A program made the position numbers and the translations under genes. A stretch of DNA of 60,008 bases from a virus, in IMG/VR virus record IMGVR_UViG_3300021090_000002, positions 1 through 60,008 of that record; one strand, given 5' to 3'. Every line of letters begins with the position of its first letter. Position 1 is the first letter of the stretch. Below, one piece after another: positions 2,663 through 55,687 of the stretch. The notes under the pieces are model-generated. The model had not been told where the DNA came from, searched no databases, and saw nothing but the letters and a program-made list of their open reading frames with translations.

Positions 2663-3190
2663 ATGCGTACGCGGCTCGATTGGGTCAAATACCACGCCGA
2701 TTTTTTCACCTTCCCGACTCTCGTTTCCGTCGTGCTGTATTGGCAAAGCGCGTTCATCGCGTCACACCCGATCGTCGCCGCGCTCGCGTTCGTCTGGGGT
2801 TTCGTCTTTTGGACGTTTGCCGAATATTGGATTCATCGCGTCGCGCTGCACGGCATGTTTTGGCACGGCACGCACGAACAGCATCACAAGAACCCAAGCG
2901 AGCATGTCCTGTTTCCGCTTTGGTATGTGCCCGGCAGCTTCGTCGCGATCTTCGGCGCGTTCTATCTGTTGAGCCTGATACACATCGCGGCGTTCGTCGC
3001 GTTTGCGGGCTTTGCGGCCGGATACGTTTGGTTCACGAACATGCACCATCTGCTGCACCATATCGATTTGGTGCCTCAGACATGGTTGCACCGCTTCGCG
3101 ATCTGGCACAACCGCCATCACCGTTTGAACGATCGCAATTACGGGATCACAACTAACGTCTGGGATCGCCTGTTCGGCACGTCGCGTTGA
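2663..3190 (+). CDS. fatty acid hydroxylase / sterol desaturase superfamily membrane enzyme
   Basis: A 175-residue integral membrane protein with the full set of histidine boxes of di-iron hydroxylases: HRVALH (about 58-63), HEQHH (about 70-74), MHHLLHH (about 130-136) and HNRHH (about 150-154), separated by hydrophobic helices. Known relatives hydroxylate or desaturate fatty acids, sterols, sphingolipids or carotenoids, using oxygen at the membrane. Its place inside a phage replication operon, between a small unknown gene and the ssDNA-binding protein, suggests lipid remodelling during infection or lysogeny. The substrate cannot be told from sequence. Confidence 0.88.
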   Translation: MRTRLDWVKYHADFFTFPTLVSVVLYWQSAFIASHPIVAALAFVWGFVFWTFAEYWIHRVALHGMFWHGTHEQHHKNPSEHVLFPLWYVPGSFVAIFGAFYLLSLIHIAAFVAFAGFAAGYVWFTNMHHLLHHIDLVPQTWLHRFAIWHNRHHRLNDRNYGITTNVWDRLFGTSR

Positions 3191-14804: not shown

Positions 14805-16016
14805 ATGACAGTCTTGACGAAAATCAGCGTCGATAGCCTCAAGCCGCGCGCCGATCGCTTCGAAGTGCCAGACGGCCGCGTGCGGGGCCTCTACATCGTC
14901 GTTCAGCCGTCCGGGGCGAAGAGTTGGGCGGCGCGCTACAGGCACCACGGGCGCGCTCGCAAGCTCACGCTAGGCCCTTTCCCGACGTTAGGTCTAGAGC
15001 AAGCGCGGAAGCTCGCGGGCGACGCCATGTCCAACGTAGCGGCCGGGCGCGATCCGGCTGGGGAGAAGGTCAAGGCGCGCGAAGCCGCCCGATCGGATCA
15101 ACTGTTCGGCGTGCTGTACGATCGCTATTTCAACGAACACGTTGCGCAGACCTTCAAGCCAAGTTCCATTCGACTCTGCAAGGATATCTTCGGCCGTCTC
15201 ATTCTGCCGAAGCTGAAACGGATTCGCCTATCCGAAGTCACGGCTCAAGATTGCAAGGCGTGCTGGCGCGCTCCCGTGCGCAAAGGCCACCGGACGACGG
15301 CAAACAAGGTACACAAGCATTTGCGGCAGTTCTTTAACTGGCTGAACGCCGAACTGATTACGCAGATCAACCCTATGGAAAAGGTTCGCAAACCGGCCGA
15401 AGACAAGAGCCGCGACCGCAAGCTGACCGATCAAGAAATCATTTGGTTTTGGTGTGCGTGCGAGGAAATCGGATACCCCTTCGGTCCTGCGTTCCAACTG
15501 TTGCTGTTGACCGGCGGACGGCGCGGCGAAGTCCAAGGCATGACCGATCGCGAGATTGATTGGCCCGGCGACGTTTGGTTGATCCCCGGCGCGCGGACAA
15601 AGAACGGGATCGAACATACGGTTTATATGTCCGACTTGATGCAACAGATTCTTAGCGCGTTGCCTGTGATCGGCCGGGGCAAAAACTGGCGATATCTCTT
15701 CACCACATCGGGCACCAAACCGGCGAGCGGATTCGCCAACGGCAAGGCGCGGCTTGATCGGATCATGAAGCGGCTCGCGGGCGACGTGCCTATACCGCCT
15801 TGGGTTGTTCACGATCTGCGGCGATCGTTCGCCAGCGGTTGCAGCCGTCTGACGCCGCGTGTTCCGCTCGAAGTTGTTGAGCGCTGCTTAAATCATGTAT
15901 CGGGCAGCTATGGCGGGATCGTCGGCGTCTATCAGTTGGAACACTTAGCGCCGGAAAAGAAAGAGGCGTTCCAGCGTTGGGCGGATCATGTTAAAAGTTT
16001 AGTTAGCGAACATTGA
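14805..16016 (+). CDS. int: tyrosine integrase (DUF4102/P4-like)
   Basis: A 403-residue site-specific recombinase. An N-terminal DUF4102 arm-binding domain (GRARKLTLGPFPTLGLEQAR), a SAM-like core-binding domain and a catalytic domain with R in GGRRGE (about 238), K in TKNG (about 266), HDLRRS (H about 335, R about 338), NH (about 364) and nucleophile Y in GVYQ (about 376). All catalytic residues are present. It lies directly beside the tRNA-derived core. Its last 14 bases overlap the convergent gene. Confidence 0.96.
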   Translation: MTVLTKISVDSLKPRADRFEVPDGRVRGLYIVVQPSGAKSWAARYRHHGRARKLTLGPFPTLGLEQARKLAGDAMSNVAAGRDPAGEKVKAREAARSDQLFGVLYDRYFNEHVAQTFKPSSIRLCKDIFGRLILPKLKRIRLSEVTAQDCKACWRAPVRKGHRTTANKVHKHLRQFFNWLNAELITQINPMEKVRKPAEDKSRDRKLTDQEIIWFWCACEEIGYPFGPAFQLLLLTGGRRGEVQGMTDREIDWPGDVWLIPGARTKNGIEHTVYMSDLMQQILSALPVIGRGKNWRYLFTTSGTKPASGFANGKARLDRIMKRLAGDVPIPPWVVHDLRRSFASGCSRLTPRVPLEVVERCLNHVSGSYGGIVGVYQLEHLAPEKKEAFQRWADHVKSLVSEH

Positions 16017-29603: not shown

Positions 29604-30161
29604 CTATACGGACTCGGACTCGGACTCGCTTGGATAGTCGCCGGACTCGCCGCCTTCGAGGGCAAGCAGCGTTGCGGTGCCGAAGCTTCCGTTGACAACC
29701 GCACACTCGCCGGTCACTTCAAGCTGGCCCCATTCGTCCGAAATCGGATTGAGCGACGACGACGGAAGAAAATCGACCTTGTTCAGGAGGATGATCCAGC
29801 GGGGACCAACTTCGTTCGTTCCGGTGAAACGCAGTTCGCCGGAAATCGCGTTCTCCGAGAAAATATCGATTTCCGTGTATCCATCCGAATTCGTCTCGGG
29901 ATCGCCAAGCAGCGCGAGGCCCAGATTGTGCGCGTTCCATTCTTCCATGAGAACGCGGACCGTCATCGATTTTTTGAGCACGATGGTTCGATCCTTCGAC
30001 CGAACGCCTTCCATCGAAGAGAAGTGCTCAAGAGATTCGGCGTTCGGCGTGAGTTCGAATTCGGGCACGTTGCCAAGATGCTTCCAGACGCTCGCGCCCG
30101 TGCGCTTGAATTCAACGATGCCTTTGCCGACGAAATAGTTGGTGATATTCGGGGCGGACAT
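29604..30161 (-). CDS. major tail (tube) protein
   Basis: A 185-residue protein (APNITNYFVGKGIVEFKRTG, KKSMTVRVLMEEW, GLALLGDP) matching the phage tail-tube pattern of lambda-like siphophages. AGGAG precedes the ATG. It ends in a Ser-Glu repeat, SESESESV, encoded by a hexameric DNA repeat and shared with the connector protein. Expected to be abundant in virions. Confidence 0.82.
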   Translation of the reverse strand: MSAPNITNYFVGKGIVEFKRTGASVWKHLGNVPEFELTPNAESLEHFSSMEGVRSKDRTIVLKKSMTVRVLMEEWNAHNLGLALLGDPETNSDGYTEIDIFSENAISGELRFTGTNEVGPRWIILLNKVDFLPSSSLNPISDEWGQLEVTGECAVVNGSFGTATLLALEGGESGDYPSESESESV

Positions 30162-30672: not shown

Positions 30673-32304
30673 TTAGGTTAGAACTGTGAAGCGAATACGG
30701 CCGTGCGCGCCGGGGCCGCTGTTTGCGAAAGTACCGACTGCCGCTACACCGGCTGCACCAACTGCAAAGCTAATACCTGATCCGACAGCCGGGCCGCCGC
30801 TTGCAAGCGTGACTATGTGTGAGACGTACGCGCCCGAACCGCCACCGGGAGCGCCTTTCGATACAGCGGTTGACGTTACACCACCGCCCGCGCCCGAACC
30901 GCCGCCTCCGGGTCCGCTGCCAGCATTACCAGCAATGAAGCCGTTGCTCGCCGGATGCGTCACACTCGCGCCGCCCACGCCGCCGCTACCGGGCGCATTA
31001 CCGCCAGCGCCAGACGTTGACGTGCCACCGTCGTTTCGCGTCTGCCCCGCCCCGGCTGTACCGCCGCTGGTGTTAACACTGTTGCCGCCGCTAGCTGTTG
31101 CCGCCGCGCCCGGAGTATGTTCACCGGATGCTGGATTGCCACCATTTGCAGTAAGGTTAAGCGTTGACACCGTTGACGCACCGGGGCCGGTCGGATGAAT
31201 GGAAGCACCGGCAAGGCTTGTCAGCGCCGAACCGCCGCAACCCGGTCCCCAGACCTCAATCTTCATCGTGTTGTAGTTAGGCGTTGTTTGCGATCCCGAA
31301 CCGGAGTCGAACGTCGCAAGAATGCCGGTCGTGACTCCTGCCACTGTGCCGGTCGCGCTACTCGTCACCGATTCACTAAAACCTTGCGCGTCCGTGTACG
31401 CGACACGACACTTAAGCGTGCTGCCAACATCGGACACGGTAGCAACATACGTTGACGCCGTTGCGCCTCCAATGTCAGTGCTTGCGCCGCGAACCCATTG
31501 ATATGTGATTCCGGTTGCCGCGCCGTCCGGGTCATTGTTGTTGAACGTCGCGGTGCATGTTTGACCTTGCTGCGCAGTAGTCGCAAACGCGACCGACACC
31601 GTGGCGTCGCCGTCGTCCGTGTAAACCGCCGCCGTCGAATTCGAGTCAATCGCTTCCGAGAAACCTTGCCCATCCGTGTAACTGACACGACACTTAAGCG
31701 TGCTGCCAACGTCGGACCCGGTAGCAACATACGTTGACGCCGTTGCGCCTCCAATGTCAGTGCTTGCGCCGCGAACCCATTGGTATGTGATTCCGGTTGC
31801 CGCGCCGTCCGGGTCATTGTTGTTGAACGTGCATGTGAGAGTTAGACCAACGCCGGGATTTCCTGTGACAGTTGCAGTTGCGTCGCCGCTGTCGATCCCG
31901 GCAACTGCCGCTGTGCTATTTGAATAGATTATCTCAAAGAAACTTTTTGCGTCCTTATAGATAACGCGGCATTTGATGGTGTGGCCGGGGTCTGTATTGG
32001 TTAATACATACGTTGACGAAGTTGCGCCGTTGATTACTGTTTCTGAATCACGAATCCATTGATACGTCGGACCTTCTATAGCCGCACCGTCCGGGTCGTC
32101 ATCGTTGAACGTGCAAGTTAGTGTTTGCCCTTCTGTTGCGGTTCCTGTAACGGTCGCGGTTGCGTCGCCCGTATCCGCGCTCGGATCAAACCAGCGTATC
32201 GCGCCCCAGACACTACCATCCCATTCAAATTGCGGCGAACCGGGAACCGCTGGGTCCGGATACTGATCGCCGATTGTTGGTGATGCTGGAAAATTCAAAG
32301 CCAT
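30673..32304 (-). CDS. Ig-like-repeat, glycine-rich tail adhesin
   Basis: A 543-residue virion protein. After an N-terminal attachment part it has three Ig/cadherin-like repeats of about 94 residues, each with TYQW, GATASTY and KCRVSYTD-type landmarks. The C-terminal 200 residues are a glycine-rich region (GGGGSGAGGG and similar) like the receptor-contacting polyglycine parts of adhesins. Two repeats are nearly identical in DNA. It lies next to the collagen-like fibre gene. Confidence 0.75.
   Translation of the reverse strand: MALNFPASPTIGDQYPDPAVPGSPQFEWDGSVWGAIRWFDPSADTGDATATVTGTATEGQTLTCTFNDDDPDGAAIEGPTYQWIRDSETVINGATSSTYVLTNTDPGHTIKCRVIYKDAKSFFEIIYSNSTAAVAGIDSGDATATVTGNPGVGLTLTCTFNNNDPDGAATGITYQWVRGASTDIGGATASTYVATGSDVGSTLKCRVSYTDGQGFSEAIDSNSTAAVYTDDGDATVSVAFATTAQQGQTCTATFNNNDPDGAATGITYQWVRGASTDIGGATASTYVATVSDVGSTLKCRVAYTDAQGFSESVTSSATGTVAGVTTGILATFDSGSGSQTTPNYNTMKIEVWGPGCGGSALTSLAGASIHPTGPGASTVSTLNLTANGGNPASGEHTPGAAATASGGNSVNTSGGTAGAGQTRNDGGTSTSGAGGNAPGSGGVGGASVTHPASNGFIAGNAGSGPGGGGSGAGGGVTSTAVSKGAPGGGSGAYVSHIVTLASGGPAVGSGISFAVGAAGVAAVGTFANSGPGAHGRIRFTVLT
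31402..31830 (-). repeat. 147-bp tandem repeat, 282-bp period, in the adhesin gene
   Basis: 31402-31548 and 31684-31830 are almost identical, with about three mismatches seen. They encode the same part of successive Ig-like domains, showing recent duplication or recombination between domains. Confidence 0.8.
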
Positions 32305-32321
32305 GATACTGCTGCTTTCTC

Positions 32322-34498
<2,177 letters not shown>

Positions 34499-34499
<1 letters not shown>

Positions 34500-34891
34500 T
34501 ACACTGACTCGGATTCGGACTCGGATTCCGACGCGGACGCGGATTCGGATTCGTCGTCCGTCTTGTCCGACAAAATCAAATACACTTCGCCGTCGCGCTC
34601 GCCTTTAGGGGACGGCTTCACGCGATAGCTTGTGACTTCCCAACTCAATCCGTTAAACGCGATCCGCGCGCCTTCGAGCGAGTCAACGGATACGCCGCGC
34701 GCCGTAAGTTCGGCGACGCGCAACACGCCAACCGGCCGGATCGTCTGAATGTTCACGTCTTCGCCGATATCGACTCCGGCGGTCTTATCGAGAATCGTCA
34801 GGTCTTCGTATTCGGAATCCGCGAGCGTGAGCACGGCCGGGACACCCTGAATCGCATAGATCGGGTTGTATAGAAGAGCCTGATAATCCAT
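34499..34891 (-). CDS. head-tail connector-type protein
   Basis: A 130-residue protein (MDYQALLYNPIYAIQGVPAVL, ITSYR-like end WEVTSYRVKPSP) resembling gpFII-type head-tail attachment proteins. The last 18 residues are a Ser-Glu/Ala repeat ending SESESESV. ATG directly follows a hairpin. Confidence 0.6.
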
Positions 34892-34935
34892 GGTCCGGCC
34901 GTCCTTGCGGCGGACAATTTAGACGGCCGGGGACC
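34892..34935 (-). promoter_or_regulatory. hairpin at the connector start
   Basis: GGTCCGGCCGTC pairs with GACGGCCGGGGACC across a loop of 18 bases; the 3' arm on the mRNA touches the start codon. It follows site 5 of the oriented motif, as at the endolysin leader. Confidence 0.5.
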
Positions 34936-34940
34936 TAGAA

Positions 34941-34954
34941 TCAGCTAACGTTTC
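34941..34954 (-). promoter_or_regulatory. oriented 14-mer, site 5
   Basis: Minus strand GAAACGTTAGCTGA, containing the TAG stop of the FkbM-like gene. One mismatch (C for T). Confidence 0.6.
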
Positions 34955-35583
34955 GGAGTCAGAACAACGTCTTTATGAACACGTTCGGCGACGACATAAC
35001 CAATACCGGCAAGCCATTTTTCGGCGTCGCCTTGCTGGCTTCCATACTTTTCGGAAAGCCCTTTGTCTTCAATGACGATTGTTGGACGGTGACGAATGAT
35101 CGTCTTCACCGCGCCCTGCAAGGCGTTGAGTTCGAATCCCTCGATATCGAGATAGAGCAAATCGCAAGCGGGATATTGAAAATCATCGATCCGGACGACG
35201 GGGATTTGCCCGCCGCTCGCGACGTAAAACGCGCCGCAGTTCGCAAGCTCATGCGATGCCAATTCGAGTCGGATCAAATCCGGCATAACACCTAGCGCCG
35301 CCTGCGTCCGAACGACGTTCGGCAGATGCGCCGTGTTCACCGTCAATGCGACGAAGTTCAGCGGATGCGGCTCGAAGGTATAGACCGTTTCGAATTCCTT
35401 CGCGAGCGCGATCGGCCACACGCCGCAATTGCCGCCCGCTTGAACACAAACGCCGCGCCCGCACGTATGCTTGAGTGCAACGGCTAGGTCTTTCGCCATG
35501 TTGAAGATGACTTTGTTGCAGGCAACATCCATTGCTGGAAACAGCAAGCCACGTACACGCTTAAAGCCCTTAATCTCAATCAT
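34945..35583 (-). CDS. FkbM-family SAM-dependent methyltransferase
   Basis: A 212-residue methyltransferase: VCVQAGGNCGVWPIAL is motif I (about 46-61), YTFEPHPLNFVALTVN (about 68-83) is the signature of the FkbM family, and LLYLDIEGFELNALQGA (about 140) is the family's conserved C-terminal block. Known relatives O-methylate sugars or fatty acids. It closes a four-gene cassette with glycosyltransferase-like genes, so a glycan is a likely substrate. Confidence 0.85.
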   Translation of the reverse strand: MIEIKGFKRVRGLLFPAMDVACNKVIFNMAKDLAVALKHTCGRGVCVQAGGNCGVWPIALAKEFETVYTFEPHPLNFVALTVNTAHLPNVVRTQAALGVMPDLIRLELASHELANCGAFYVASGGQIPVVRIDDFQYPACDLLYLDIEGFELNALQGAVKTIIRHRPTIVIEDKGLSEKYGSQQGDAEKWLAGIGYVVAERVHKDVVLTPKR

Positions 35584-36217
35584 TTTCCTTCATCCAATCG
35601 TTGACGTGTTGTTGCACTGTTTGAATGATTCCTTTACGCGTGCGAATTTGCGTCTGCATCGCCTCCTTACGATCCGCTTCGGGGAAGTGCGAGAACGGGA
35701 GAAGATTCGCGTACACGCTTCCGTCATGATTCCAAAACAGTTTGCGCGGCTGATCTGAAAACTTTGACCGAACCCCCGCGTCATCGCGCGTCGGCAATAA
35801 CTCGCCATCCGCGAAGACATTGCCGAAGTCATTGACGATCGCCGGAATCAGCAACCTATGTTTGGCGGCGACATACAGACGCGAGCCGCCGACGTACTCG
35901 CAAACGATATTTCGCGGCCGGTTGCGTAAGTGCGGCGGCAACTCGATTTCACTTCGACGCTGCAAGCGGCCGGTGACAAGCATCACCGGGTTAGTCACGC
36001 CGTCGCGCAAGATGCTTTCTTCAAGCAGGCGGTAATGCCCGGTCGCAGCATTGAAAAGTCGCACATACGATTCTTCCATGATATCGCGAACGGGATCGTA
36101 CTTCGCATTCCACCAAGTCTCTTTTCCTTTCCATCGCTTGGCAATTTCAGGAATGAGGCGCGGCGAAGCAAGATTGAAAATGCGTTCAGCACTTAACAGT
36201 ACAAAACGGACGTGCAT
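35576..36217 (-). CDS. ParB/sulfiredoxin-like domain protein (tentative)
   Basis: 213 residues from the ATG overlapping the upstream stop. The stretch RLLEESILRDGVTNPVMLVTG, then EYVGGSRLYVAAKHRLLIPAIV reads like the core of ParB/Srx-fold proteins (a loop offering a ligand site, then G-x-R and a helix). No HTH is evident. It may be an enzyme or nucleotide-binding partner of the flanking glycosyltransferase and methyltransferase. Confidence 0.45.
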   Translation of the reverse strand: MHVRFVLLSAERIFNLASPRLIPEIAKRWKGKETWWNAKYDPVRDIMEESYVRLFNAATGHYRLLEESILRDGVTNPVMLVTGRLQRRSEIELPPHLRNRPRNIVCEYVGGSRLYVAAKHRLLIPAIVNDFGNVFADGELLPTRDDAGVRSKFSDQPRKLFWNHDGSVYANLLPFSHFPEADRKEAMQTQIRTRKGIIQTVQQHVNDWMKEND

Positions 36218-36840
36218 CACACCAACTCCGTCGCAAGATTCCAAGGCTTTGGCTTTCCGTGAAATACCAAAATGCGAGTCCCTTCCGGCACTTTCCCGGA
36301 CGGCTGAACGTGAACCTTGTATGAGCAAATCGCGCCGGGGTGTGTGTCTTGCCAGCGCAAAACGGAAGACTCGACTCCTAGCACTTCCTCTAGGAAATTC
36401 TGATCGCCGTTATGGCCCGGCCGCTTCACGCTAAAACGCGAAATGATTTCTTGTTCTTTACCGCACCATGCCTGCCACACGCGGGCGCGATCTTCCATCG
36501 TCAGATACATAACGGACGATTGCAGACCGTCCGCGCGATAGAAGTCGCGAAGCATCGTCGTGTTTCCAACGCGAGCAAGGTTCGCGACGGGGCCAAGAAC
36601 CGTTGAGTCCAAATCCATATAGAAAAGATCGCCCTCGATATCCGGGCGAAACAATTCCATTTTTGACCACCATCCGGGATAGTCGTATTTGAGCAAGATA
36701 TTCTGCGGTGCCATGATCACCGGAATATCCGCGAGCGCGACAACATCGCAATCTGTGATCTGCGCAGCTAATCGGCGAACGTGCGTCGGCGTGTACTCTT
36801 TCGACCAGCGCATGACCAAATAGACTTTTGGTTTTGTCAT
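36217..36840 (-). CDS. GT-A-like glycosyltransferase
   Basis: 207 residues from the ATG coupled to the upstream stop. KVYLVMRWSKEYTPTHVRRLA opens a Rossmann-like fold; WWSKMELFRPDIEG and FYMDLDSTVLGPV carry a DxD-type metal/sugar-nucleotide motif (about 88-92); GHNGDQNFL and HGKPKPW near the C-terminus fit GT-A enzymes. Acceptor unknown. Confidence 0.7.
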   Translation of the reverse strand: MTKPKVYLVMRWSKEYTPTHVRRLAAQITDCDVVALADIPVIMAPQNILLKYDYPGWWSKMELFRPDIEGDLFYMDLDSTVLGPVANLARVGNTTMLRDFYRADGLQSSVMYLTMEDRARVWQAWCGKEQEIISRFSVKRPGHNGDQNFLEEVLGVESSVLRWQDTHPGAICSYKVHVQPSGKVPEGTRILVFHGKPKPWNLATELV

Positions 36841-37478
36841 AGGGTGCTTTCTAGCGTTGCCTTCGGCCACCATGTAAGGAGTGAAATCGGACTCGTATTG
36901 ATCACTTCGACTCGAAGCTTTTTCAGATGATCAACGATCAAACAGAGTTGCGTCTGCTGAACCTCCCAAGTCTTGTTGCCGGGTTTGTTTTTCCAAGGAT
37001 GCGCGGCGTGGTGATGCGACACGCCGTTTTCGTCGCGGCACATATCGGCCCCAAGCAAGACGATCTTTCCGCCGATCGCGCCGGGCAGAAGCGCGCCGAT
37101 CTTGTGAACCGCAAGGTTCATCGCGCCTTGAATGCTTGTGCGTTGCGAAGCCAGATGGGCGGGATTCGTGGCGAGGCCGGGCGGCGGGCGAACGCGCAAC
37201 ATGCGCTTGAGGCCGGGGCCGCGTGCCGCCTTGGCGACGGTAACTAGACGGCCCCGAAACGGCTGTAGCGCGGGCCGTGATTGGTGTTCTTTCCACCAAC
37301 GGCTATCCCCGAAGAAAACATAATCAGCGAACGGAACGGCTTCGTAACTCGAATTGACAGCGATCACGCGACGGCCGCGCAATAGCTCCAAATTCTGTTG
37401 CCGAACGCTTGTTCCGCCGCCGACAATGAATACGGTTTCGCCGCGCCAATCCGGCGACGCGGCCCAATAAATGGCCAT
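36837..37478 (-). CDS. MptE/DUF115-like protein
   Basis: The internal ATG (MAIYWAASPDWRGETV) gives 213 residues. VFIVGGGTSV, then VIAVNSSY and DYVFFGDSRWW match the DUF115/MptE-like fold shared with sialyltransferase-like enzymes and with proteins that attach sugars to flagellin. GADMCRDENG and a His-rich loop follow. First gene of the cassette after the capsid terminator. Confidence 0.65.
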   Translation of the reverse strand: MAIYWAASPDWRGETVFIVGGGTSVRQQNLELLRGRRVIAVNSSYEAVPFADYVFFGDSRWWKEHQSRPALQPFRGRLVTVAKAARGPGLKRMLRVRPPPGLATNPAHLASQRTSIQGAMNLAVHKIGALLPGAIGGKIVLLGADMCRDENGVSHHHAAHPWKNKPGNKTWEVQQTQLCLIVDHLKKLRVEVINTSPISLLTWWPKATLESTL

Positions 37479-37504
37479 GACAATAATTTCTAAAATGGAT
37501 AATG

Positions 37505-37538
37505 AAAAAGCCGTGACGGGGTAATCCCCCATCACGGC
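37505..37538 (-). terminator. Rho-independent terminator after the capsid gene
   Basis: On the minus strand GCCGTGATGGGG pairs with CCCCGTCACGGC (one mismatch), loop of about five, then TTTTT. It separates the capsid gene from the modification cassette. Confidence 0.8.
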
Positions 37539-37570
37539 CTGATTTCGTCAGTCGTACATCGCCGCGCGGC

Positions 37571-38638
37571 CTACATGATACCGGCGCAAAGCGTCTGCGG
37601 TCGCAGACACAAGGGCAGCGGATTCTGCTGCGTGTGCAATTCCACGAAGCGATTGAACCGCTGATCGGGCGCGATCTTGGCGTAGCGCGGAAGGCCCTTG
37701 GTGTTGGCCGTCTCCATGAAGTCGCCCGGCGCGAAATACTCGGCATAGAGGCCGGGGACGCCCGTCAGGAACAACACGGCTTCGTCCGGCGCAATGCCGA
37801 CCGTGCCGCCGTCCGACGCGTCGGCGTCGCCGCCGTCGTCCGTGCCCTGATAGTTCTCCCAGACGATGCCGCCGTACTCGAAGACACCGAAGGCGTAATT
37901 GCCGCCAAGGCGAACGGTCTGTTCGGCCGTCTGCAAGAACGTGCGCTTCACGTCTTCGCGCGAAATGAGTGCGTCGAAGAATGTATCACCGCAGAACGCC
38001 CAGACCTTCGCCGAACCCGGAAGCGTCATCTTCGCCTTGCGCTTGATGAAGCGCGAAACTTGCTGACACCGCACGCGAAGGTCTTCGCCGCCGGAGTCCG
38101 ACGCATCGAGTCCGAAATCGAACACTTCAGGCTCGTAAGCGGAGTCGCTGTTCTGCACTTCGAACAGCGTAAACAGATCGGTCAGAGTCGATCCGTCCGC
38201 GTCCAGAATCTTGCCGCGAAGCGCGCCGAGTCGGTGATGCTCAAGCGTCAGGTCATGACGCGCGGCCATCTTGTTCATGCGGCTGACGACGGTATTCGTG
38301 ACGGTCCGGAGTTGATCGGTCGTACCGAACTCGCGCACGCCGACGACTTCGGTTGCCTGAATGGTGTCTTCAAGCTGAATGTGCGGGATCGAAACCGAAC
38401 GCAGAGTCGCTTTGTCGGCCGTTTCCTTTGCGGACGGCGAACCGCGCGGCGAAGTCTGAATGAGCGTCAGGGCCATGCCCTTGCGTTCGATGCTGACGGT
38501 CGTAACCGCGACGCCCTCGCCGACGCCCGCAAACGCGAGCGCTCCCGCGCGACCCGGAACGTGATCGATTTCATTGATCGCGGCGGTCAGAGAAACGAGG
38601 CTGAATGCGTCGTCGTTGAAGATATCCATGTGTTCCAT
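37571..38638 (-). CDS. major capsid protein (gpE family)
   Basis: A 355-residue HK97-fold capsid protein of the lambda gpE type: MDIFNDDAFSLVSLTAAIN, RGSPSAKETADKATLR and the long E-loop region. The C-terminal block (KVWAFCGDTFFDAL, FMETANTKGLP) is characteristic. GGAGG precedes the ATG. No N-terminal delta domain; scaffold is supplied by the protease gene. Confidence 0.92.
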   Translation of the reverse strand: MEHMDIFNDDAFSLVSLTAAINEIDHVPGRAGALAFAGVGEGVAVTTVSIERKGMALTLIQTSPRGSPSAKETADKATLRSVSIPHIQLEDTIQATEVVGVREFGTTDQLRTVTNTVVSRMNKMAARHDLTLEHHRLGALRGKILDADGSTLTDLFTLFEVQNSDSAYEPEVFDFGLDASDSGGEDLRVRCQQVSRFIKRKAKMTLPGSAKVWAFCGDTFFDALISREDVKRTFLQTAEQTVRLGGNYAFGVFEYGGIVWENYQGTDDGGDADASDGGTVGIAPDEAVLFLTGVPGLYAEYFAPGDFMETANTKGLPRYAKIAPDQRFNRFVELHTQQNPLPLCLRPQTLCAGIM

Positions 38639-38694
38639 GACAGAAGCGCCTCCAAAGCGCGGATTAAATCGACTGTCATGGATTGTTCGAATCC

Positions 38695-38723
38695 TAGTTG
38701 ATCCGACAACGCCGGATCAACTA
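38695..38723 (-). promoter_or_regulatory. hairpin that includes half of motif site 6
   Basis: A perfect 11-bp stem TAGTTGATCCG / CGGATCAACTA with a 7-base loop. On the minus strand the 5' arm is the TAGTTGA half of the oriented motif, so motif and structure may compete or act together between the decoration and capsid genes. Confidence 0.65.
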
Positions 38724-38730
38724 ACGTTTC
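38717..38730 (-). promoter_or_regulatory. oriented 14-mer, site 6
   Basis: Minus strand GAAACGTTAGTTGA, overlapping the stop of the decoration gene. Exact consensus match. Confidence 0.7.
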
Positions 38731-39112
38731 AGCGCAGAACGATATTCTTGGCCGCGAGCGCGGCGATCACGGCGGCGTCTTCCGCATCCGAAGAGTCATC
38801 GTGCAGCTTCACGCTCGACGCCTTCACTTCCGCCAAACGTGCGATATACGCGAATTTCGTATCAGCCGTGAGCGTGACCGGCGACCCGCCGGGCACAATG
38901 AGAATGCCCGCGATAGCTTCATCGGACACGCCTTCCGAGTTGACTGAGCCTGTTGCGACAACGAATTCACTACCCGAGCCGTCGTCTGTAACCACTTGAC
39001 CGTCTTCGACGGTTTGGCCAGACGAAACAATGCAGCTTTCGCGTGAGAGTGTGCCCGGCGCTTCCGACAACAGGAATTCCCCGGCGTGCTTACCTTCGGT
39101 CTTGACGCTCAT
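38729..39112 (-). CDS. head decoration protein (gpD-like)
   Basis: A 127-residue protein with the gpD-family pattern HAGEFLLSEAPGTLSRE and IAGILIVPGGSPVTLTAD. It should bind capsid threefold axes and stabilise the expanded head. Directly before the capsid gene in transcription order. Confidence 0.85.
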   Translation of the reverse strand: MSVKTEGKHAGEFLLSEAPGTLSRESCIVSSGQTVEDGQVVTDDGSGSEFVVATGSVNSEGVSDEAIAGILIVPGGSPVTLTADTKFAYIARLAEVKASSVKLHDDSSDAEDAAVIAALAAKNIVLR

Positions 39113-45347: not shown

Positions 45348-46811
45348 ATGCCCATTCAGACAGTTCGGCTTGCCGATCTTCAGACCAATCCCTACCGCGA
45401 TCTGCGGATTGACCCTATCGATCAGGATCAGGTCGCCACACTCGCGCGCTCCATCAAGGAGTTCGATTTCTGGGGTGGTGTTGTAGCCCGCAAGCATGGT
45501 GACGTTCTACAGATAGCCGCTGGCCACCATCGCGTACACGCCGCAATGAAGGCGGGTCTTGTCACAGCACAAATCCACGTTGGCACGAATATTGACGATG
45601 CCATGATGGCTCGCCTGCTTGCGCAAGAGAACGCGACACAACGCGGCGATTCATCCTCAACAGCCGCAACAGGGTCGGTCGCAGCTGCTATCCGCTACCT
45701 TGCCCCGGTCATCATGAGGGGCGATCTGGCGAAGCTGCCGGGCAAACATTGGGATCGACAAGACGGAAAGTCGTTGCAGGCGAAATCGCCTGCAACGGTG
45801 AAGGACCGCATTGCGGATGACCTTTCCAAACTTCAACACCACATCGGTTCGGATAACGGTATGGGTTGGCAAATCATCTGCGATTTCCTTTGGGGCGTTC
45901 CCGGCTTCACCGAACGATCGACGCGCGACTATCTCGCCACGGTGAAATCATCCGGCGCATATACACGCTACATCAAGGAAGCCGCGAAGCTTGTCGGTGA
46001 AGAGCGCGCCGAACAAGAGGCGAAGGCTAAGCAGCGCGAAGACGCGGCGCGTAAAAGGCGTGAACAGGCTGAACGTGAAGAGAAAGAGGGGCATGAACGA
46101 AAACGCAAAGCCGACGCCGACGCTAAGAGAGCTAAAGAGGCATCCGATAAAAAACGCGCGGCGGACGCGCTCAAGCGCGCAAAAGAAGAAACCAAAAAAG
46201 CACAACAGAACAAACGCGCAGCAAAAGAAGATGAAGAGCGCGCGGCTAAAGAGCGCAAGCCCTCGCGCGTCGCGTCAAAAGCCGACAAGGCCGCATCTTC
46301 CATCAAACGTGTTTTTGATGACGAAGGTGTTTCGCCTTTCTTCTCCAATGGAAATCAGAAGCAGGTGTTTCGAACCATTGTCGAAGACATCGGGCTTAAG
46401 ACGCTTGCTTTGAATCGGCAAGCGCCACTTGCAAAAAAGATTGCTGATCTCGCTAAAGAGCAAGGCCGCGAGCTTTCAGGCACATTCATCCGCGAGACGA
46501 TCAGCGCGATCGTATTTGCTGAAAAGAACGCAGCCCGCCGCGCTGACAACAACGCGCGCAAGGAAGCGTTTAAACGAAATGTCGATATGCGCATGAAAGA
46601 ATACATGCATCACATCGTTCGCGATTTTCAACGCATCGCGGCCGAAGGAAAAAAGCTGACGTTGTTAATTCGGGAGAATCCCGAAGTGCCTTTCACGATA
46701 TCCGTGAGCGTGCTGGGCAATCTAAAAGAAGCTCGCGAGTTCATCGATCAAATCATTAAGGAGCATGAAGGACATGGCCAATCCACTGTCAGGCTTATCG
46801 CGTCGCGGTAG
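45348..46811 (+). CDS. parB: ParB-family CTPase/DNA-binding protein
   Basis: A 487-residue protein. The ParB N-terminal domain (VRLADLQTNPYRDLRIDPID) has GHHRVHAAMKAG (box of the GxxR type, about 64) and QENATQRGD (ENxxR-type box II, about 92), the CTP-binding motifs. A central HTH-like region precedes a very long charged coiled coil (about 210-320, Lys/Glu/Ala/Arg) and a C-terminal domain. No parA is present. The palindrome array directly upstream is its likely DNA site. It may segregate or silence DNA, or act as a VirB-like transcription switch. Confidence 0.85.
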   Translation: MPIQTVRLADLQTNPYRDLRIDPIDQDQVATLARSIKEFDFWGGVVARKHGDVLQIAAGHHRVHAAMKAGLVTAQIHVGTNIDDAMMARLLAQENATQRGDSSSTAATGSVAAAIRYLAPVIMRGDLAKLPGKHWDRQDGKSLQAKSPATVKDRIADDLSKLQHHIGSDNGMGWQIICDFLWGVPGFTERSTRDYLATVKSSGAYTRYIKEAAKLVGEERAEQEAKAKQREDAARKRREQAEREEKEGHERKRKADADAKRAKEASDKKRAADALKRAKEETKKAQQNKRAAKEDEERAAKERKPSRVASKADKAASSIKRVFDDEGVSPFFSNGNQKQVFRTIVEDIGLKTLALNRQAPLAKKIADLAKEQGRELSGTFIRETISAIVFAEKNAARRADNNARKEAFKRNVDMRMKEYMHHIVRDFQRIAAEGKKLTLLIRENPEVPFTISVSVLGNLKEAREFIDQIIKEHEGHGQSTVRLIASR

Positions 46812-55021: not shown

Positions 55022-55066
55022 AGATGCTGCGGAGTCCGGACTAGTTTTTGCGCATTGGAGTTTCTC

Positions 55067-55687
55067 ATGCGTTCGATTTACCTGATCGGCTCGCTTCGCA
55101 ATCCCAACATTCCCGATATCGGCAACGCGCTACGCGCGGCCGGGTTCGAAGCCTTCGACGATTGGTTTTCAGCCGGGAAAATTGCCGATGATAGCTGGCT
55201 TGAGTATGAGAAACGGCGCGGCCGTACCATGCTCGAAGCCCTTGAAGGGCACGCCGCGAAGAATGTCTTCGCCTTCGATCACAAGCATATCGAGCGCTGC
55301 GATTGCGCCGTGTTGGTCACGCCCGCCGGGAAGTCCGGACACCTTGAACTCGGATATGCGCTAGGACGCGGCAAGCCCGGCTATGTGCTCTTTACTGAAG
55401 AGCCTTCAAGATGGGACGTAATGTATCAATTCGCGTCCGGCGTCTTCGTTGAGCTTCCTAAGCTAATCGATGCTTTGAATTTCGAAGCCGAAGCGGTCGA
55501 AGACCTGTTGCGCGGCAAAGTGCAGTTTCAATTTCAGCCGGGCCTTGTTGCCTCTTACCCTTTACGTGATACCCGCGACGCCGCCGAGACTGACGCCGTT
55601 TTCGACGGCTATGCCAAATACTCCAAAACATTAGGAAGCGGTTTAATTTGGCTCGCGCCCGGCAGAATCAGGGAAATCGTATCGTGA
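55067..55687 (+). CDS. nucleoside 2-deoxyribosyltransferase-like enzyme A
   Basis: ATG after TTGGAG gives 206 residues. IYLIGSLRNP opens the fold, DDWFSAG is the substrate loop, and SGHLELGYALGRGKP (about 96-110) carries the catalytic Glu of this family. Relatives exchange bases on deoxynucleosides or hydrolyse them. An extra C-terminal 60 residues follow. Confidence 0.75.
   Translation: MRSIYLIGSLRNPNIPDIGNALRAAGFEAFDDWFSAGKIADDSWLEYEKRRGRTMLEALEGHAAKNVFAFDHKHIERCDCAVLVTPAGKSGHLELGYALGRGKPGYVLFTEEPSRWDVMYQFASGVFVELPKLIDALNFEAEAVEDLLRGKVQFQFQPGLVASYPLRDTRDAAETDAVFDGYAKYSKTLGSGLIWLAPGRIREIVS

Follow-up and report, generated by a model that had tools for sequence, protein, structure and literature searches.

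The window analysed here, a 60,008-nucleotide stretch of viral DNA (IMG/VR record IMGVR_UViG_3300021090_000002), carries on its minus strand a cassette of four intact open reading frames (37478 to 34945), with the capsid gene upstream and a small gene in the connector position downstream. The capsid gene is preceded by portal, ClpP-type protease and gpD genes, and the head genes are of the lambda type. The features of the locus, all on the minus strand, are as follows.

37571–38638, minus strand: major capsid protein of the lambda gpE family (PF03864, 2.9e-77)
37508–37540, minus strand: intrinsic terminator in the gap between capsid gene and cassette (14-bp stem and T-run, −30.3 kcal/mol, z −4.98)
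36837–37478, minus strand: gene 1, DUF115/MptE-like (sialyltransferase-type) protein, homologue of P1 PmgO (213 aa; phrog_4603, 7.8e-28)
36217–36840, minus strand: gene 2, GT8-like glycosyltransferase, homologue of P1 PmgQ (207 aa; phrog_1962, 1.9e-49)
35576–36217, minus strand: gene 3, putative ParB/Srx-like protein (213 aa; AF2 model and Foldseek, GGSR motif)
34945–35583, minus strand: gene 4, FkbM-family methyltransferase by sequence (212 aa; PF05050, 1.8e-12)
34499–34891, minus strand: small gene in the head-tail connector position, encoding a Ser-Glu C-terminal tail (homologues in three relatives)

The cassette genes overlap end to start at each joint, by ATGA, by TGATG and by 8 bases. 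The reading frames, these overlaps and the hairpin bear out the initial annotation, which had placed four coupled genes between capsid and connector behind a strong terminator; decay of the genes, which it had raised as a possibility, is not seen in any of the four. The term 'moron', also used there, is not supported in its strict sense of a unit with its own promoter and terminator that is expressed in the lysogen: a scan for the sigma-70 consensus gave no minus-strand promoter-like site in 34400–38800. Read-through late transcription would thus be the simplest supply for the cassette, and the position and overlaps of its genes suggest late expression together with the virion genes.

By sequence, gene 4 clearly belongs with the FkbM methyltransferases, as first described, both curated profiles scoring above their cut-offs (PF05050, 48.1 bits against 22.7; TIGR01444, 4.6e-14, 53.1 bits against 37.7). 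The description of gene 2 as a GT-A glycosyltransferase is likewise supported, by its match to the PHROG glycosyltransferase family phrog_1962 and by its similarity to GT8 enzymes. Gene 2 is homologous to P1 PmgQ (5e-31) and carries DLD and HGxPxP motifs, in which D76, D78, H194 and G195 are invariant throughout the family. The family profile matches the solved GT8 structures of the Skp1 galactosyltransferase (5.1e-6) and glycogenin (8.5e-6), relatives that act on proteins or glycoproteins. None of 30 family members matches any Pfam model at 0.01, and we therefore use the name GT8-like.

Gene 1 matches the PHROG 'alpha-2,3-sialyltransferase' family, phrog_4603, and is homologous to P1 PmgO (2e-12); a single-sequence scan returned no close relatives. 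Its family profile gives weak PDB matches to GT42 sialyltransferases (E about 0.04 for the CstII entries) and to 5mu5, by our reading the flagellin glycosyltransferase Maf. The DUF115/MptE label holds at the level of the family, in which 21 of 31 aligned homologues match PF01973 (MptE-like/DUF115; best 8.9e-7), but not for gene 1 alone, which has no Pfam match, PF01973 included; we have therefore filed it as DUF115-like and not as a PF01973 member. The original idea of a set that builds a glycan and methylates it is supported as well.

Gene 3 has no match in Pfam, PHROGs or NCBIfam, and no relatives in 50,697 phage records or in the collection of genomes from bacteria and archaea. Five relatives, 41–46% identical, occur in viral contigs (L079, L093, L094/L097, L095 and L096), so that the family has six members including the window, all from viral contigs. 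All six share EY(L/V)GGSRL, in which GGSR (GxxR), at residues 110–113, is invariant. The AF2 model reached a pLDDT of 66 with four sequences and 87.5 with six; PadC, ParB-N, Noc and Osa already headed the matches to the earlier, weaker model. The top Foldseek match in the PDB is an RK2 repressor co-complex (probability 0.82, E 0.09), which we take to be that of KorB, a ParB-family protein, and named matches in BFVD are mostly ParB/Sulfiredoxin (best E 0.019). Foldseek probabilities rise to 0.96, with no E-value down to 1e-3 and with low TM-scores, and the ParB_N profile gives a weak 0.13 in one family member. In the model a helix (61–72), a loop and a strand (78–82) fit the C motif, and the GxxR at 110–113 fits the P motif, as these are defined for the ParB/Srx fold (PMC12704722).

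From this modelling, gene 3 is likely to have the ParB/Srx fold. The ParB/Srx-like label given at the outset is supported by the AF2 model, which retrieves mostly ParB/sulfiredoxin proteins among named viral matches, but not by any significant sequence match. Proteins of the ParB-CTPase/Srx fold, such as KorB, PadC, SerK and Srx, have in common with gene 3 the predicted fold, a Box I-like helix-loop and the GxxR. Gene 3 differs from them in its extra N- and C-terminal elements, in having no significant sequence or Foldseek E-value, and in its glycosyltransferase-linked context. The window also encodes a separate ParB-N-like protein upstream of a primase (45348–46811, plus strand; PF02195 at 4.2e-5, below the Pfam cut-off; ParB-like in PHROGs).

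How unusual is such a cassette among head genes? A scan of viral contigs with the glycosyltransferase alone gave 590 confirmed stretches, of which the best 80 are the loci counted here. A DUF115-like gene or fused domain is present in 73 of these best 80 loci with an iterated profile (45 with a strict one) and FkbM in 28. A head gene lies nearby in 50 and head genes lie on both sides in 34, while in 20 the glycosyltransferase sits between the capsid and the connector or head-closure genes. These capsid-connector loci, including the window and L093/L095, are spread over 10 of the 40 clusters into which the glycosyltransferases group at 60% identity, and the phages that have them carry capsid genes of both lambda and HK97 type. 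The search for the cassette gene order in other genomes, proposed in the initial annotation, has thus found a recurrent head-gene slot. The position of the cassette within the lambda head order stands as described, but the slot is not an odd one, being occupied in 20 of the best 80 loci and in two named phages, PMG1 (D3-like) and S20. We conclude that the cassette belongs to a widespread, little-studied phage cassette type and is no odd insertion. For two parts, the capsid-connector slot as a recurrent position and the ParB/Srx-like family, the literature searched holds no description, a result limited by the search and no proof of novelty. Related gene sets are located elsewhere in P1, phiNP, XacN1 and CcrBL9. 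Fused DUF115-glycosyltransferase proteins of about 410–480 aa, in both domain orders, were seen in L055, L013, L025 and other loci.

Several named phages offer comparisons. The pmgO-pmgP-ppp-pmgQ genes of P1 also form a compact overlapping cluster, in which PmgO corresponds to gene 1 and PmgQ to gene 2. Unlike the cassette, this cluster also encodes a Ser/Thr phosphatase and, in PmgP, a further DUF115-like protein; it shows no FkbM or ParB-like gene and does not adjoin the capsid gene. At the Orf7 locus of the Pseudomonas phages D3/PMG1, as in the window, a DUF115-like gene follows the capsid gene and a terminator and precedes the connector; the terminator annotated in PMG1 matches that at 37508–37540 in position. 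That slot differs in holding a single DUF115-like gene, with another methyltransferase, unmatched by the FkbM profile, further on. Tetraselmis viridis virus S20 has DUF115, GT and FkbM homologues between capsid and head closure, as in the window, but its cassette is larger and a ParB-like gene was not found in it. Mycobacteriophages such as Che8 and Rita encode glycosyltransferases, and their capsid proteins are reported to bear glycans (PMC11256854). The glycosylation genes of Maravista, unlike those of the window, are close to the genome end.

What does the cassette make? We favour a glycan that is O-linked to a virion protein and methylated, made by late-expressed enzymes, and give this proposal about an even chance of being correct. 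The timing, the acceptor, the sugar, the sequence of steps and whatever gene 3 does are inferences here: transcription past the terminator behind the capsid gene would yield the four enzymes late, below the level of the capsid protein, during particle assembly. The DUF115-like and GT8-like enzymes, acting in the cytoplasm on host nucleotide sugars, would assemble a short O-linked glycan on Ser/Thr residues of a protein from the head, the connector or the tail, and the FkbM enzyme would O-methylate this glycan. The ParB/Srx-like protein would bind a nucleotide and might be an accessory enzyme, such as a kinase, or a switch.

Virion glycosylation is the most likely function on several grounds. 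Besides the location of the cassette, no transmembrane-like segment was found in any of its four proteins, and no GtrA flippase, CMP-sugar synthetase or epimerase family was found in the record. The GT8 relatives of gene 2 point the same way, as do the weak resemblance of the gene 1 family to 5mu5 and the glycans reported on mycobacteriophage capsids (PMC11256854), and XacN1, which encodes a DUF115-DUF115-GT set, has at least two glycoproteins in its virions (PMC5852040). P1 does not need pmgO, pmgP or pmgQ to form plaques (PMC10695390), which would suit genes for a decoration. Against this reading, the authors of the XacN1 study attributed its glycoproteins to other glycosyltransferases (PMC5852040), and the sets of P1, CcrBL9 and XacN1, in the parts of those genomes examined, do not adjoin the capsid gene. 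Lipid A-core or nucleotide sugars are also possible substrates for glycosyltransferases of the cytoplasm. We know of no phage with exactly this slot on which a glycan has been shown.

The main rival, a real one although less likely, is modification of the host surface. Here the enzymes would alter cytoplasmic lipid A-core, O-antigen or capsule precursors, superinfecting phages would be excluded or the exit of progeny aided, and the late-gene position would be a convenient insertion site. Loci for LPS and capsule often contain members of the GT8 and FkbM families, and an integrase gene at 14805–16016 indicates a temperate phage; D3, moreover, alters its host's O-antigen, although by other genes (PMC12373910). 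The missing flippase and membrane-like segments nevertheless count against this explanation, as do the failure of the sigma-70 consensus scan to detect a promoter belonging to the cassette and the persistent location of such genes inside head operons. The glucosyltransferases of T4-like phages modify DNA, and hypermodification of phage bases against restriction by the glycosyltransferase, the ParB/Srx-like protein and the methyltransferase is another explanation, one that we regard as very improbable. GT8, DUF115 and FkbM are not, to our knowledge, base-modifying families, and the cassette sits among head genes. Links between ParB-fold proteins and DNA systems such as DndB (PMC12704722) favour DNA modification, but what makes it unlikely is that no member of the thymidylate synthase/hydroxymethylase family was found in the record, which may be incomplete, in a search that had positive controls. 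A TET/JBP search of the record was negative and, having no positive control, uninformative. Two further plus-strand genes were noted, encoding a nucleoside deoxyribosyltransferase-like protein (55055–55687; phrog_12607, 4.8e-14) and a fatty acid hydroxylase family match (2663–3190; PF04116, 4.5e-16).

Virion glycosylation is documented in few phages, and genes of the cassette type are common across tailed phages, often fixed among head genes. Should such cassettes act on virions, sugars with an influence on adsorption, stability and recognition by the immune system may be present on a large share of all phage particles. With homologues in P1, where they are nonessential, and in D3-like phages, the question is open to a direct test in laboratory strains.

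Gene 3 may be an unrelated passenger in the cassette, a regulator or anti-defence gene and no glycan enzyme, which we think somewhat doubtful. ParB folds are widespread in phages, where their roles are undefined (PMC12704722), and the gene is absent from most cassettes, both of which suit a passenger. All six family members, however, directly adjoin a glycosyltransferase among head genes, with a methyltransferase or DUF115 gene near each, and the partner glycosyltransferases sit on different branches of the tree, although a single origin is still possible. There is also a more speculative role, to which we attach a rather low probability: gene 3 might be a nucleotide-dependent enzyme of the virion glycan, for instance a sugar or serine kinase that primes the acceptor, and Ser-Glu tails could be such acceptors. 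If gene 3 did act in glycan synthesis, the ParB fold would gain a role outside DNA handling, and a nucleotide-switch fold would have entered a new pathway.

Finally, candidate acceptors were considered among the neighbouring genes. The sequence SESESESV ends both the connector-position protein and the major tail protein (29604–30161, minus strand), in partly different codons, and these serine-rich tails could be glycan acceptors in this phage. Homologues of the connector-position gene come after the cassette in L055, L036 and L048, and lack the tail SESASASESESESESV; close relatives of the connector-position and major tail proteins have no Ser-Glu tails. Ser-Glu tails were rejected as a general acceptor, since they are missing from relatives that carry the cassette, and a scan for SESESES-V tails gave just 5 contigs, with translated tails that were apparently spurious or uninformative. 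The acceptors first suggested, Ig-like and collagen-like fibres or the capsid, have lost the collagen-like fibre as a general partner: long collagen-like reading frames occur in just 3 other loci, and a general link between collagen and glycan was rejected. In the window, two genes that are direct neighbours in L055, L036 and L048 are separated by an insertion (30673–34499, minus strand) encoding a collagen-like, tail-fibre-like protein and a protein with Ig-like repeats.
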